From positions 1 through 20,412 of the IMG/VR virus record IMGVR_UViG_3300017783_000273: DNA of 20,412 nucleotides, one strand, 5' to 3'. This DNA comes from a virus. Under the pieces are notes generated by a model. It ran no database searches and was not told the origin of the DNA. It saw nothing but the letters and a program-made list of their open reading frames with translations. The position numbers and the translations under genes were made by a program. Shown one piece after another: positions 5,879 to 18,237 of the stretch (position 1 is its first letter; each line of letters starts with the position of its first letter).

Positions 5879-6603
5879 GCGAGAGCTTGATGGAAGGCAA
5901 TGAAGCGCCAGCAGCAGAAGAGCAGCGTGACTTTGTTGTAGCAGAAGATAGTCAGCCAGAACGTCCTGAATGGTTACCTGAGAAGTATAGCAGTGGTGAA
6001 GACTTAGCTAAGGCATACAAGGAGCTTGAGTCAAAGCTGGGAACTAAGGAAGAAGACATTCGCAGCAAGCTTCTTGAAGAAATTCAGGCTGAAGCATTTG
6101 GAGATCGGCCCGATTCTGCTGGCGATTATCAGCTTCCTGATATTGTTGATAATGATCTTGCTGTAGATAATGAGTTACTACAGTGGTGGTCAGAGCATTC
6201 ATTTGAAAACGGCTATGGTCAAGAAGAGTTTCAGAAGGGTATTGAGATGTATGCTCAAGCCGTTAATGGAAGCCAACCTGATCTTGAGGCTGAAGCTTCA
6301 AAACTTGGCGACAATGCAAATGACCGCATTCAAGCGGCGTCTATGTTTGCAAACAAGTTTTTTCCAGAGCAATCTTTGCCAGCTATTGAGCGCATGTGTG
6401 AAAGTCATGAAGGTATTCTTGCTCTTGAGGCAATCATGGAGGCAACTAAGGATGGTTCGTTTTCTGATGGTACTCAGCCTACAGGTCAGACAACTCAAGC
6501 TGAGTTAGATCAAATGATGCAAGATCCTAGATACTGGGATAAGAATGACACTGCTTACGTTAAGCAGGTAGAAGAGGGCTTTAAGCGTCTTTATGGAGGT
6601 TAA
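5875..6603 (+). CDS. Capsid assembly scaffolding protein
   Basis: This 242-aa acidic protein lies between the portal and the capsid genes, the usual place for the T7 gp9-type scaffold. The N-terminal third is disordered-looking and acidic, with the typical element RPEWLPEKYSSGEDLAKAYK-ELE. The C-terminus is a short helix ending VEEGFKRLYGG, preceded by DPRYWDKNDTAYVKQ, a pattern seen at the end of marine podophage scaffolds. It would direct capsid-shell assembly and then leave. ATG 5875 overlaps the upstream stop (ATGA), and the last 11 nt overlap the next gene. Confidence 0.85.
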   Translation: MSESLMEGNEAPAAEEQRDFVVAEDSQPERPEWLPEKYSSGEDLAKAYKELESKLGTKEEDIRSKLLEEIQAEAFGDRPDSAGDYQLPDIVDNDLAVDNELLQWWSEHSFENGYGQEEFQKGIEMYAQAVNGSQPDLEAEASKLGDNANDRIQAASMFANKFFPEQSLPAIERMCESHEGILALEAIMEATKDGSFSDGTQPTGQTTQAELDQMMQDPRYWDKNDTAYVKQVEEGFKRLYGG

Positions 6604-7114
6604 GATTCTTAAGAGGGGTAAGTTTTACTTAACCCCTTTTACTCTTGACCATATTGATGAGGTTGCTGCCAATCTAAGTCATGAGAATATAAGAGAGCTT
6701 GAAATCCTTGGACACTTGGATATTAAGCAAGCCATTACAGAAATGTACGAATGCTCTGAATGTTACCTAGTTCGCAAGGAGGGTGAAGTATTTACTGCAG
6801 TTGGTGGCCTTTGGTATAACGAAGACCAAGATTACCCCCAGATGTTCTTTATGTTTTCTCATAAAATCAAAGAAAACTTTACATCTATTGCTCGCGGCTC
6901 AAAGATGTTGCTTAATTATTTAGAGCAAACGCAGCCTCAAATGACTATGACTATACTTGCTGACTATGAGCTTATGGTGGACTGGGCAGTGTGGCTTGGC
7001 TTTGAGCCAGTGGGAGTAAGCATATCACCTCCGCATAAGTACGTTGATTTTGTGCGTTGCAATCCAAACAAAAAAAGTGTTTACGATGGGGAATTACGGC
7101 CCATAACGCACTGA
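6593..7114 (+). CDS. T7 gp13-like protein with GNAT-like fold (173 aa)
   Basis: ATG 6593 overlaps the scaffold gene by 11 nt, inside its GGAGG-like end. The region IRELEILGHLDIKQAITEMY, then GEVFTAVGGLWYN, then a helical stretch with IARGSKMLLNYL, and VDWAVWLGFEPVG follows the layout of the T7 gp13 family, small proteins with an acetyltransferase (GNAT)-like fold. T7 gp13 is needed for normal virion morphogenesis. The GNAT acetyl-CoA loop is not well kept here, so catalysis is doubtful. The position between scaffold and capsid suggests a role in head assembly. The TGA stop at 7112-7114 is followed by a 79-nt non-coding leader. Confidence 0.7.
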   Translation: MEVKILKRGKFYLTPFTLDHIDEVAANLSHENIRELEILGHLDIKQAITEMYECSECYLVRKEGEVFTAVGGLWYNEDQDYPQMFFMFSHKIKENFTSIARGSKMLLNYLEQTQPQMTMTILADYELMVDWAVWLGFEPVGVSISPPHKYVDFVRCNPNKKSVYDGELRPITH

Positions 7115-14700: not shown

Positions 14701-14752
14701 TGACTATGTTCCCAAGACATATGAAGACATTAATAGGGCGCTAGAAGAATGA
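11747..14752 (+). CDS. Internal virion protein, T7 gp15-like by position (1001 aa)
   Basis: ATG 11747 has a CGGAG ribosome site just upstream (11736-11740). The protein begins MAVIRERTRVFNQPVGVVRA, followed by SEDIGRAISNVASTFQQIAF, and is predominantly helical throughout with A/E/K/R-rich segments. A glycine patch, IRGGGGNAND, lies near residue 640. No enzymatic motif is visible. Position and helical build match gp15-type ejection proteins (747 aa in T7), which form the periplasmic part of the channel. It is longer than the T7 protein, as is usual in marine podophages. The TGA stop overlaps the next ATG (ATGA). Confidence 0.75.
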   Translation: MAVIRERTRVFNQPVGVVRADAGSEDIGRAISNVASTFQQIAFREAAENAQKKGIEIAESVEEKKLRTINPDTGKPEAFKAPKGFGRIASAAYQSVIDKRYEDSIGTELRVKAQEIALKYQYDPESYDEVMSNYIGQMADGAEGKYKTFVETTGAKFLALTKLNIQERVASRSRQNAAGSILTGISASQDDAYSLARAGGFIARENEDVSEAQAIHDREFANAQNGVSSALLKVGADQTASRQLKQSIALGAVEYLLSGTANKSERNAIDLAIRTRGNQMAGLPKGLQEEVKSLLAYVEPANIEAVLRHSSVVSSDYNAVEQDQIQQASNLAKLKARQLELTLPDTLEALFTTSSLNASDAFTSDEAYSIQAGLNLTDDLYTNFQSKLDQRFLSDQTYSRSERESDLKDARQNLLRPYLIQAAAEGNIEEFRIALVSNNPEDMSKLSLKQRTFISEIYNTDFFDPNEDTGFAREVLSANINQIRKDRDRDNLRLDIYNSVTEAATAAEAGALRDEEFNSLVARIKGSVGPDGLTADKAASELNRLNKFRAFGEVTTFAARANSRSLNNLAAYVDSRGKREGMSPDVVAAGNRILETTDDVDAVVSKINGLRATVASEEAQMKDAIELRNNSIRIRGGGGNANDKADRDISQDMLDNAGIDLAQFDQLPDTQRAAALSIMRSAPPQGLITNLDRISSGLKVPNAEQYLDLFAVLSNTPTGTGTFVSTLGDSIKNPQLLTDIHEIRLITGQGVNEIAMDLIERQRDPKSKLNMDVVLDKKTPTAYALDQIGDPIIAAELAPLVEYMALTGKSASQIESVLDTTVNTKYAKSTFIADPRFPAGSIKRSRYSLEAVFPEEDDRTAFIAAVESQLPFGYSLDPTVTVKGTTDIEVEDVKRVYLVPDESTSGVNYFSYFVDENEELRPLIIEQVSRKGEKPELMWPTFDRSDIADHTAKKASVRDSALKEQETEQKRKFLVREELENRLNPDYVPKTYEDINRALEE

Positions 14753-17700
14753 AGAATGGGTTGACAGCATTAAGAGAGATTGAAACAGGGCAAAGGGTAA
14801 CACCTCTGCCCAATATTTCTTTCATAGATACAGTTAAGTCTTCATTAGCCTACAAATATGATCCGTTGATAAGCAGAGAGCAGGAAATAGCTCGCTTTCC
14901 TTCATTGCCTCAAGATGGATACAGAGCAATAGATAATATTCCTGATGACATGAAGCAGTATGGCTCGACATTGCTTAGAGCTACAAGCCAAGAGCATATG
15001 GAGTTTTTGGTTCAAAACCTAAGAGATGGGCTAAAGACACGCCAAGATCTTTCTAGGTCAGGTATTATACCACAGTTTGCTGCGGAACTGTTTGATCCTA
15101 TTAATTACATTGGCATTCCGTTTGCTCGCGCTGCAACCTTTGCTGGCGCTGCTGTCAGAGGTGGTGCGTCTACCGCTGCTGTTGTTGCTGGTCAGGAGGC
15201 TATTCGTTATCCGCTTGATCCTCTAGCAACACCAGAAGAAGTCGGCTTAAACATTGGCGCTTCATTTATTCTTGGCGGTGCCATCAGTGGCTTAGTTACA
15301 ATCCCAATGCAAAGAAGGATTGCCGCGCAGAAGTCTGCTGAAGAAGAGATAGCTAATTTGCAGAAACAGATTGAGCCAGTTGAAGGTGAGCCTGTTGCTG
15401 AGATAGCACCAAGCCTGTTTACTGACTCATGGCTATACAAAGGAGTGACTACTCCTATGAAACGTATTCTTACTGATGACAGCATCCCGAACTCAGTTAA
15501 GTTGCGTACACTCAAAATAGCTAACGACTCTGGCATACTGCTTGCAGCAAACAAGCAAGGTCAGAAGGTAGGGAACTCAGTCTTTCAGAACTCTAAGCTG
15601 CTCGAGGGCGAATGGGTAAAGACATATGATGACATGATGCTGATCTGGGGTGAGAGCACTGGCAAGGGTGTGGTCAATCCTTTGGACTACACATTCAAGC
15701 GCAAAGACTTTGAGACATGGCTTGAAGGCGTAGACTCAAAAGCAATGCGTGGCGTTGAAGCTGCGGATGACTTTGAAGCTCAGGCAATGAACAAACTCAA
15801 TAAGTTTTACAAGACTTGGGAGACTCGTCTTAGCGAGCAAGGTTTGATTGGATCTAAGGCGCACTACGAAAAGTTTATAACAGGCCGTGAGAGGCGCATA
15901 GAGGGCGTACAGAAGCGCTTAGAGACTGCTCGCAGCATAGACTACCGTATGAAGCTAGAGGCTCAGGTGCGGCGCTACAGCGATGAGGTAGATGAGGCTC
16001 GTGCTATTTTAGATGATATAACTGATGAGGTTATGCCAGCTAATGAAAAGATATTCCGTCCTAGATACTGGGATCAGGATGCAATCGAGGCAAACCGCGT
16101 AGAGTTTGAGCGCATTCTAACAGACTGGTATAAAAACAATCCGTCAATAGTTGTTGAAAAAGACGGTAAGTTTAGCAAGGTACAGCTATCTACAGATCCA
16201 GCTGCTATTAAGTCGCGTGTTGACGATACAATAGATAACATTATTGGCATCAAAGACATCTTAGATCCTGAGGCTGGTTACTATGGCGCTGGTAAATCAA
16301 AGCACTTTAAGCACCGCTTGGTAGATATTCCAAACGCACTGGTCTTAGATTTTATCCAAACCAATCCGATTGCTGTAATGAAGGCATACGTTCAGCGTAC
16401 TGGAACTCGCTATGAGTTTTCTCGACAGTTCGATGGGGCATCTATCGACGATGTATTAGATGATACGTTCAACGAAATGCTGGATGCTGGCAATACACCA
16501 GAGCAAGCTAACCGCGCTTTGCGTGATATGCGTCACCTGTATAGAAGAGTTACAGGTGGTTTGCAGCGTGATCCTGATCGCTGGGATCAATCAACAGCTA
16601 GAGTTCTTCGCAGCCTTGCACAGCTAAACTATCTAGGTTCTGCTGGTGTATCTACAATAACTGAACCAGCTAAGATTATGATGGAGCATGGGCTTGGACC
16701 TACGTTCCGTGGTTTGTTCTCAGTAATGAAGAACAATCAGCTAAGACTTGGCGGCAAAGAAGGCAGACTAGCTGGTGAAGCCTTAGATAATATTATGAAC
16801 TCGGCGCATCTGCGTCTTGTTGATGATGTAAATAACAATCCGTTTAGATCTGACATACTGGATAAGGCTAAAGAGCCCTTTTATCTACTTAATGGTCTTG
16901 GCCCGATTACTCGTATCTTCAAAGACTTTGACGCTATGATGCGCTCTCATAGCATTATTGATTACTCTGTGCGTTGGACGCAGGGCAAAGCAACAAAGCA
17001 AGAGCAAGAGTATCTACTGCGTTATAACATTGATTTAGAAGATGCTAAGAAGCTTGCGAATGCACCTTGGCAGAAGTCTGAGTCTGGTTTGTATATGGCA
17101 AACACAGAGGCATGGACTAATACGATTGAGTTTCCTGTGACCAAAGCTGAAGTCATATCTGGGCCAACAGGTGAGTTTGCTAAAGGTGGTCGCTATAAAG
17201 CAGCATTCTACCGTGACTCTGATAAGAAGATTTACATAGATGAAGAGTACATTAAGGATGTAATGTACGAGCAGCGCGGCTGGGAAAACCCACGAGTTGA
17301 AGGCGTTAAACCTATTAAAAAAGGTATCATCAATACGCCAGAAGATTATGTGACTTTTATTAAGATGCATGAGATTATGCACTCAATCAACAGGCCCAAA
17401 GAAATGGGCTTTGATATGAGAAAGAACGAAGACAAAGTTGCGTATGAGAATGCAATCAATGATCTAGCTGTTGCTGAGATAGAAAAGCAAGCAAGGGTAG
17501 ATCCTGAGACTGTGCGTACATTCCGCAATGCTCTTGGTTCTGGAATTATGAATACGATCTTAATGGGCACACCAGCAGATAAGCCAATAATTACTGATGG
17601 TATCGCCTACATTCCTATGCGTGTTGCTGAGAAGTTCGGCATGAAAGAAGACAGAGAGTTCAAAGGGTATGCTCGCATTGAAAGCGGATTGCTTGGACTA

Positions 17701-18237
17701 CCGTTTCAGTTCTATAGCTACAGCTTGGCTGCGGTAAATAAGATTACAGCGGCATATGGACATGGGCAGCTAAAGAACCAGTGGATTGGTACAGCTCTGT
17801 CTATGGGCTTGGGCTATATGGTGCTGCAATACAAAACGCCCGACTTTGTAGAGATGAGTTTCCAAGATCAGCTTGCTAGATCCTTTGATTACTCAGGTGT
17901 TACTGCTTTGTATTCTGATATGTTCTACACAGCCATGTCTACTAGCTTAGCATTGGGTGGCCCTAATCTAACTGGTGGCGTTCTTCAGCCTCGTTTCCCT
18001 CAGAAACCTGATGCATTAGATGCTGCAAACGGCTTACTAGGCGCTGGGCCTAGCATTGCTACTGATCTTGCTCGTGGGTCTTATGATCTGGTTACGGGCA
18101 ATGTTGGTGAGGGCACTAAAGAAGTTATTCGTAATTTACCTTTCGCCAGAATGTGGTTTTGGAAAGGTAAGATGAATGAATTTACGAATATGATTGAGGG
18201 CGAGCTTGATGCTCCTCTTGGATTTGGTCGATACTAA
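14749..18237 (+). CDS. Internal virion protein, T7 gp16-like by position, with HExxH peptidase-like domain (1162 aa)
   Basis: This is the last and largest ejection protein. Hydrophobic segments lie at about 118-148 (ARAATFAGAAVRGGAS) and 166-186 (VGLNIGASFILGGAISGLV), and another near 1012-1026 (WIGTALSMGLGYMVL). The N-terminus lacks an obvious lytic-transglycosylase motif, unlike T7 gp16. About residues 790-917 hold a separate-looking domain: GRYKAAFYRDSDKKIYIDEE, then MHEIMHS with H874, E875 and H878 forming HExxH, then AYENAIND with E900 as possible third zinc ligand. This is the gluzincin-type arrangement. The flanks (GLYMANTEAW before, ETVRTFRNALGSG and MNTILMGTPADKP after) look like one continuous family sequence, so the domain appears inserted. 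A peptidoglycan or protein cleavage role during entry is inferred. Confidence 0.8.
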   Translation: MKNGLTALREIETGQRVTPLPNISFIDTVKSSLAYKYDPLISREQEIARFPSLPQDGYRAIDNIPDDMKQYGSTLLRATSQEHMEFLVQNLRDGLKTRQDLSRSGIIPQFAAELFDPINYIGIPFARAATFAGAAVRGGASTAAVVAGQEAIRYPLDPLATPEEVGLNIGASFILGGAISGLVTIPMQRRIAAQKSAEEEIANLQKQIEPVEGEPVAEIAPSLFTDSWLYKGVTTPMKRILTDDSIPNSVKLRTLKIANDSGILLAANKQGQKVGNSVFQNSKLLEGEWVKTYDDMMLIWGESTGKGVVNPLDYTFKRKDFETWLEGVDSKAMRGVEAADDFEAQAMNKLNKFYKTWETRLSEQGLIGSKAHYEKFITGRERRIEGVQKRLETARSIDYRMKLEAQVRRYSDEVDEARAILDDITDEVMPANEKIFRPRYWDQDAIEANRVEFERILTDWYKNNPSIVVEKDGKFSKVQLSTDPAAIKSRVDDTIDNIIGIKDILDPEAGYYGAGKSKHFKHRLVDIPNALVLDFIQTNPIAVMKAYVQRTGTRYEFSRQFDGASIDDVLDDTFNEMLDAGNTPEQANRALRDMRHLYRRVTGGLQRDPDRWDQSTARVLRSLAQLNYLGSAGVSTITEPAKIMMEHGLGPTFRGLFSVMKNNQLRLGGKEGRLAGEALDNIMNSAHLRLVDDVNNNPFRSDILDKAKEPFYLLNGLGPITRIFKDFDAMMRSHSIIDYSVRWTQGKATKQEQEYLLRYNIDLEDAKKLANAPWQKSESGLYMANTEAWTNTIEFPVTKAEVISGPTGEFAKGGRYKAAFYRDSDKKIYIDEEYIKDVMYEQRGWENPRVEGVKPIKKGIINTPEDYVTFIKMHEIMHSINRPKEMGFDMRKNEDKVAYENAINDLAVAEIEKQARVDPETVRTFRNALGSGIMNTILMGTPADKPIITDGIAYIPMRVAEKFGMKEDREFKGYARIESGLLGLPFQFYSYSLAAVNKITAAYGHGQLKNQWIGTALSMGLGYMVLQYKTPDFVEMSFQDQLARSFDYSGVTALYSDMFYTAMSTSLALGGPNLTGGVLQPRFPQKPDALDAANGLLGAGPSIATDLARGSYDLVTGNVGEGTKEVIRNLPFARMWFWKGKMNEFTNMIEGELDAPLGFGRY

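Follow-up and report, generated by a model that had tools for sequence, protein, structure and literature searches.

A zincin-like metallopeptidase domain as a candidate exchangeable passenger in the T7-type ejection protein of marine podoviruses

Small metallopeptidases of the zincin type have a precedent in phage proteins that are injected into the host. Iyer et al. (2017) described such zincins (MPTases) in polyvalent proteins, with the virion RNA polymerase (vRNAP) of phage N4 included among the carriers (PMC5512222). The MPTase core consists of a three-stranded sheet, an N-terminal helix and two C-terminal helices that bear the HExxH motif and a glutamate (PMC5512222), and the HExxH of the C1 domain of the N4 virion RNA polymerase was also noted in a 2025 structure preprint (PMC12633501). 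Among giant polyvalent phage proteins and virion RNA polymerases of the N4 type, effectors that are zincins or ADP-ribosyltransferases (ARTs) are already known or have been predicted. In the open-access literature, we found no report of such effectors in the T7-type gp16 ejection protein of marine podoviruses.

We analysed a viral DNA stretch of 20,412 nucleotides from IMG/VR (below, the window), in which the last gene ahead of the tail fibre (14749..18237, + strand) encodes a gp16-like ejection (internal virion) protein of 1162 aa. Residues 70-684 of this protein match phrog_342, ‘internal virion protein with endolysin domain’ (E = 5e-38), and positions 274-1304 of T7 gp16 are collinear with it (hhalign, 857 columns, E = 6.8e-5); T7 gp16 and the gp16-like proteins of phrog_342 are likewise encoded by the last ejection gene, just ahead of the tail fibre. 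Upstream come a gp14-like gene (phrog_418, E = 6e-6) and then a 1001-aa gene at the gp15 position, and the scaffold (Phage_T7_Capsid), portal and tail-tube proteins encoded upstream of the ejection genes are T7-like. The structural gene cluster also contains, near its start, a DUF6321 protein (342-620, E = 5e-22) and, between the scaffold and major head protein genes, a 173-aa protein without a Pfam match (6593-7114). Relatives of the 1162-aa protein are encoded at 73 IMG/VR loci. Among cultured phages, Pelagibacter phage EXVC031P Hodr is the nearest, with a portal protein that is 63.7% identical and a gp16-like protein that is only 26% identical. Since the closest cultured relative is a Pelagibacter phage, the phage analysed here likely infects SAR11-like (SAR11-type) bacteria.

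The left part of the ejection protein (14749..17127, +) comprises a membrane-associated region followed by a gp16-C-like region, and the most hydrophobic segment of the protein is at residues 169-187. The right part (17509..18237, +) was assigned with hhalign, in which LPFQFYSYSLAAVNK (about residues 984-998) aligned with T7 gp16 from ~1103, near the second membrane region of T7 gp16. The sequence on both sides of the domain described below belongs to one ejection-protein family, as the original prediction for this locus, made from the sequence alone, had stated. That prediction had also remarked on the lack of an N-terminal transglycosylase, and this is borne out: phrog_342 aligns only from profile position 275 on, which indicates that the transglycosylase of T7 gp16 is missing, no transglycosylase or hydrolase Pfam domain was found in the 1162-aa protein, and a lytic transglycosylase is absent from its first ~150 residues. 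Indeed, Pfam and phrog profiles recognised no peptidoglycan hydrolase in any of the three ejection proteins. Whereas T7 gp16 begins with its transglycosylase, the window protein instead carries a 127-residue metallopeptidase-like domain before the second membrane region.

This zincin-like domain comprises residues 794-920 (17128..17508, +), with edges set by homologues that lack the unit. The original prediction had placed it at 17116-17499, which by translation corresponds to residues 790-917 of the open reading frame, and the motifs that it listed are present (KMHEIMH at 872-878, AYENAIND at 898-905, and IYIDEEYI). HEIMH (residues 874-878; 17368..17382, +) contains the predicted zinc ligands H874 and H878 and the predicted catalytic E875, and ENAIN (residues 900-904; 17446..17460, +) contains the predicted third zinc ligand, E900, which follows H878 by 22 residues, together with an invariant N904. 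(The codons are 17368-17370 for H874, 17371-17373 for E875, 17380-17382 for H878 and 17446-17448 for E900.) N-terminal to the active-site helix is a strand-helix segment, KIYIDEEYIKDVMYEQ (about residues 828-843; 17230..17277, +; strand 38-41 and helix 43-53 of the model described below), and D831 and E832 are invariant among 36 non-redundant relatives.

At the window’s site, H874, E875, H878 and E900 are unchanged in 36 of 36 non-redundant relatives, a degree of conservation that the searches may overstate, as some of the patterns used to find relatives were motif peptides (HEIM was part of one pattern of six in one search, and both patterns were motif peptides in another). Only 22 positions of residues 790-924 are invariant in the same set, among them also Y899, N901 and N904, and they group at K872-M873-H874-E875..H878 and at Y899-E900-N901-A902-I903-N904. 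Loss of the predicted ligands from most homologues had been named as an outcome at odds with a zinc peptidase; we observed missing histidines only in a relocated copy in the clade of phage Hodr. The dN/dS of the insert (0.01-0.16 in 15 pairs) is similar to that of the flanks and indicates purifying selection. The domain has no Pfam match up to E = 10 and no PDB sequence match, contains no M15, M23 or M14 peptidoglycan-peptidase profile (Pfam), and had no relatives in a scan of 84,980 bacterial and archaeal genomes that reaches close relatives only. As judged from its sequence, it does not belong to any known metallopeptidase sequence family.

An AlphaFold2 model of the domain, built with an input of 25 natural sequences, is confident (pLDDT 89.4, pTM 0.84) and consists of three strands, a helix, the HExxH helix (75-91 of the domain) and the E900 helix (104-123). 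This modelled layout is compatible with H874, H878 and E900 meeting at one site. The best Foldseek match in the PDB is the selecase/minigluzincin of M. jannaschii (E = 0.042, prob 0.82), and none is below E = 0.001. Nearly all top PDB neighbours are nonetheless zincins, namely selecase, jannalysin (M. jannaschii), deuterolysin, PprI/IrrE and archaemetzincin, so that the structure prediction and comparison proposed for this domain yield a confident fold with zincin neighbours, though each match is weak. Among viral models, the neighbours are four phage proteins of 990-1325 aa (E <= 1.4e-4, best 1.1e-5), followed by SprT-like, IrrE-like and peptidase-annotated proteins at E ~0.1. Minigluzincins/selecase, SprT-like and IrrE/PprI-like zincins are thus the closest solved or annotated folds, but their structural E-values to solved structures are weak and they have no detectable sequence kinship with the domain; moreover, the cellular selecase-, SprT- and IrrE-type members are free-standing proteins, whereas the phage domain sits inside an ejection protein. 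A feature of gluzincins is also present, in that all 36 relatives have the conserved glutamate (E900) on the helix after HExxH.

Conservation, the confident predicted fold, its zincin neighbours and natural presence and absence (see below) together support the proposal that the last ejection protein contains a zinc-peptidase-like domain. We consider it highly probable, from the conserved residues and the model, that residues 794-920 form a catalytic zincin. HExxH is a short motif, and the lack of a Pfam match would also fit its chance occurrence in an ordinary helical segment with no enzyme domain, but the invariant H, E and H with the downstream E, the discrete edges and the confident fold with its zincin neighbours make such a coincidence very improbable.

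The model matches the MPTase core (PMC5512222), except that the first helix comes after the strands. Polyvalent MPTases and the window domain with its relatives are alike in being small zincins with an HExxH helix, a glutamate on the next helix and variable inserts between them, and in both cases the zincin is within a large protein injected with the phage DNA (as we infer for the window protein) and ART domains are found in relatives. The carriers are different: a T7-type gp16 that has only one enzyme domain in the window, as opposed to an RNA polymerase or a many-domain protein for the polyvalent MPTases. By hhalign, the domain has no significant relation to N4 vRNAP (E = 0.13, 19 columns) or to the zincins of giant polyvalent phage proteins (E of at least 0.0045, over only ~10-50 columns). 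Polyvalent proteins are recognised by several unrelated enzymatic domains, of which the window protein has one recognisable example; a relative, L142, has a nested second, ART-like domain. The window protein plausibly works like a polyvalent protein, though it is outside the multi-domain definition.

Although residues 794-920 are present in most of the 73 relatives, the unit is missing in one clade (L051-L062, L072, L074), in which the flanks join directly, without a scar (TDEL followed immediately by AQNRFRNALGSGVANTILMG). Ejection proteins lacking the insert, for which the original prediction had suggested a search, therefore exist. When the flanks were placed on a tree with the Hodr clade as root (a quick method, with long branches flagged), the clade without the insert fell within those that have it. 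Starred branches force two changes, for which a single gain and a single loss are the preferred reading. We thus rejected a recent insertion, since the flank tree suggests that the domain is ancestral to the family and that the empty site reflects a secondary loss. The earlier impression that the domain looks inserted holds in so far as it is a discrete unit with clean edges, but not in the sense of a recent arrival, as it appears ancestral and was lost once on the tree. A profile search detected no second copy of the domain in the insertless contigs, and found the diverged Hodr copy as a positive control (E = 5.5e-13). (L048-L050 have a 92-aa insert after residue 210, which we judged not to be a second copy; it looks by eye like a charged helical segment and has no HExxH.) Outside the missing unit, the protein of the insertless clade is still about 57-67% identical. 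This clean loss, with no copy elsewhere in the contigs, indicates that the protein can be built and ejected without the domain, at least in the insertless clade.

The insert also differs between phages whose flanks are nearly the same. Between L063 and L024 the flanks are 95-97% identical and the insert 72%, and between L142 and L048 the flanks are 95-100% identical and the insert 86%. These identities show that the insert region is swapped between close relatives, like an effector cassette.

Neither an insert at the window’s site nor any HExxH is present in Hodr and its relatives (L197-L207). They do have a homologous domain near the N-terminal membrane region (L075:4290-4820, L197-L207), which aligns with the window domain over 114 columns (profile-profile E = 9.6e-14, score 84, with single-sequence shuffles at <= 21). 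This copy has MKKE[IV] in place of MHEIMH, and [FY]ENR[IL]N, so that both zinc histidines are lost and the glutamates retained. Gp057 of Hodr (OQ414635) and the window protein are thus homologous ejection proteins with homologous domains, but the former has its domain at the N-terminal membrane-region site and without the zinc histidines, and the latter at the C-terminal site with HExxH intact. The degenerate copy at the other site indicates that the module has held two positions in the same protein and has decayed in one lineage. Since the Hodr-clade copy is conserved despite the loss of both histidines, the fold may be useful without catalysis, and the window domain could similarly be a structural, DNA-binding or metal-binding spacer. 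We regard this as quite unlikely for the window’s site, where the zinc-binding and catalytic residues are invariant in 36 of 36 relatives.

Additional domains are nested within the metallopeptidase of several relatives. In L142, a 94-aa domain lies between the metallopeptidase strands (L142:5719-6000); it is also found in L216 and L217 and is absent from L048. Since the aligner mispaired the metallopeptidase and the nested domain in a joint L142 model, the 94-aa domain was folded alone, which gave a confident model (pLDDT 88, pTM 0.79). Its closest structures in the PDB, KptA/Tpt1 phosphotransferases followed by diphtheria toxin, all have the ADP-ribosyltransferase fold, although none is individually significant. 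We therefore describe this mini-domain, from its model, as ADP-ribosyltransferase-like. Its homologues are in very large phage proteins of up to about 2400 aa, some with LPD22, LPD39 or ART-PolyVal, and often with HExxH. Xanthomonas phages 10KY502B (L208) and Usaquen (L209) also encode large proteins (1391 and 1778 aa) with HExxH zincin-like segments, and after the HExxH helix comes a segment similar to the 94-aa domain (E = 8e-4 for 10KY502B, and E = 0.2, not significant alone, for Usaquen). This ART-like segment reads YHGG...YFST...YAEGY, and the Usaquen gene is directly upstream of the tail fibre.

A second nesting site is the loop after residue ~887/888, between the HExxH and E900 helices, which is empty in the window (17407..17412, +). 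A 234-aa insert after residue ~888, between the active-site helices, is found in L045 and L063 and not in L024. It has no profile or phage match, and looks ART-like by eye (FVHYT ... GDVMYFT ... YDEV). L022 and L037 have a lysine-rich insert of 48-49 aa after residue ~887. The same loop is filled in both pairs and is thus a repeated insertion point. None of the open-access papers searched describes a T7-type gp16 as the carrier, a zincin of this unrelated sequence, a pair of insertion sites or a nested ART-like domain.

In T7, gp16-C (residues 411-1118 of gp16) was modelled as a cytoplasmic hub in the host (PMC8954989), and gp16 reaches into the cytoplasm (PMC11784390). By hhalign, the insert site corresponds to T7 gp16 ~1033-1064, just before the membrane region at 1119-1290, and the site of the Hodr copy to a position just after the first membrane region, both approximately, since confidence is low over much of the alignment. 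With the insertless clade alone, the hhalign match to T7 is weak (E = 0.0095) and ended near the site, and profile searches did not reach the T7 gp16 PDB chains. If the T7 topology is conserved, the domain would face the cytoplasm, bearing in mind that the cytoplasmic placement of T7 gp16-C is itself a model.

The original prediction favoured delivery into the periplasm, for cleavage of peptidoglycan cross-links, an envelope protein or the ejection proteins themselves. As a wall- or envelope-penetration enzyme, the domain would act on cross-links or an envelope protein there and so allow formation of the channel. In favour of such a role, every ejection protein passes through the periplasm, the T7-type transglycosylase is missing, and no other peptidoglycan hydrolase was recognised in the three ejection proteins. 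This role is unlikely, however, given that the insert site falls in a stretch of T7 gp16 that was modelled on the cytoplasmic side, that no substitute hydrolase is recognisable in the ejection proteins of the clade without the domain, and that the structural neighbours are selecase, IrrE and SprT zincins rather than M15, M23 or M14 wall-peptide enzymes; the P22-like gp16 likewise has no wall hydrolase (PMC8954989). The nested ART-type domain, of a kind known from injected host-directed effectors, also speaks against periplasmic delivery for wall cleavage. (An M15-type endolysin, Peptidase_M15_4, E = 1.5e-6, L054:14676-15188, is encoded in 22 of 26 related contigs, with or without the metallopeptidase.)

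Alternatively, the domain could cut its own polypeptide or its partners among the ejection proteins, either while still in the head or once ejected, and thereby remodel the ejectosome or free parts of gp16. Iyer et al. proposed such a role for polyvalent-protein zincins, citing the processing of P1 DdrB (PMC5512222), and a cut near the domain, which is located just before the segment aligned with the second T7 membrane region, would free the C-terminal domain. On the other hand, the zincin-bearing N4 vRNAP is packaged uncleaved (PMC5512222), and the insertless clade, with the rest of its protein conserved, implies that processing is not needed for ejection. We thus view autoprocessing as rather unlikely.

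The cytoplasmic mapping, the dispensability and exchange of the domain, the nested ART-like domain and the precedent of polyvalent zincins lead us to favour a host-directed effector on the cytoplasmic side, a reading by analogy to which we assign about even chances. By analogy with T7 gp16, the ejection protein would be carried in the head and leave it together with the genome. The domain, at the edge of the C-terminal part that would reach the cytoplasmic face, would hold zinc through H874, H878 and E900 and activate water with E875, and may cut a host protein early in infection, as an injected effector of the polyvalent-protein type. Against this reading, HExxH also occurs in proteins that are not proteases, and the window protein has only one recognisable enzyme domain. 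Host-directed cleavage nevertheless ranks above autoprocessing, envelope cleavage and a non-catalytic role, in that order. That the small zincin is an exchangeable passenger of the podovirus ejection protein, co-delivered with the genome and highly diverged from the polyvalent-protein metallopeptidases, may equally well be true or not.

More tentatively, the podovirus ejectosome could be an exchangeable effector bay, with a zincin at two membrane-adjacent gp16 sites that nests ART-type domains and is lost or swapped among close relatives. The natural pairs with and without the domain, the degenerate relocated copy in a cultured pelagiphage and the differences in nested ARTs between close relatives make the role of the domain directly testable. 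If the domain is an early host-directed protease, phages of abundant ocean bacteria would be using the core ejection machinery itself to carry functions in counter-defence or takeover, and, if the effector bay is real, the T7-type DNA-injection channel would also deliver host-directed proteases before phage gene expression.
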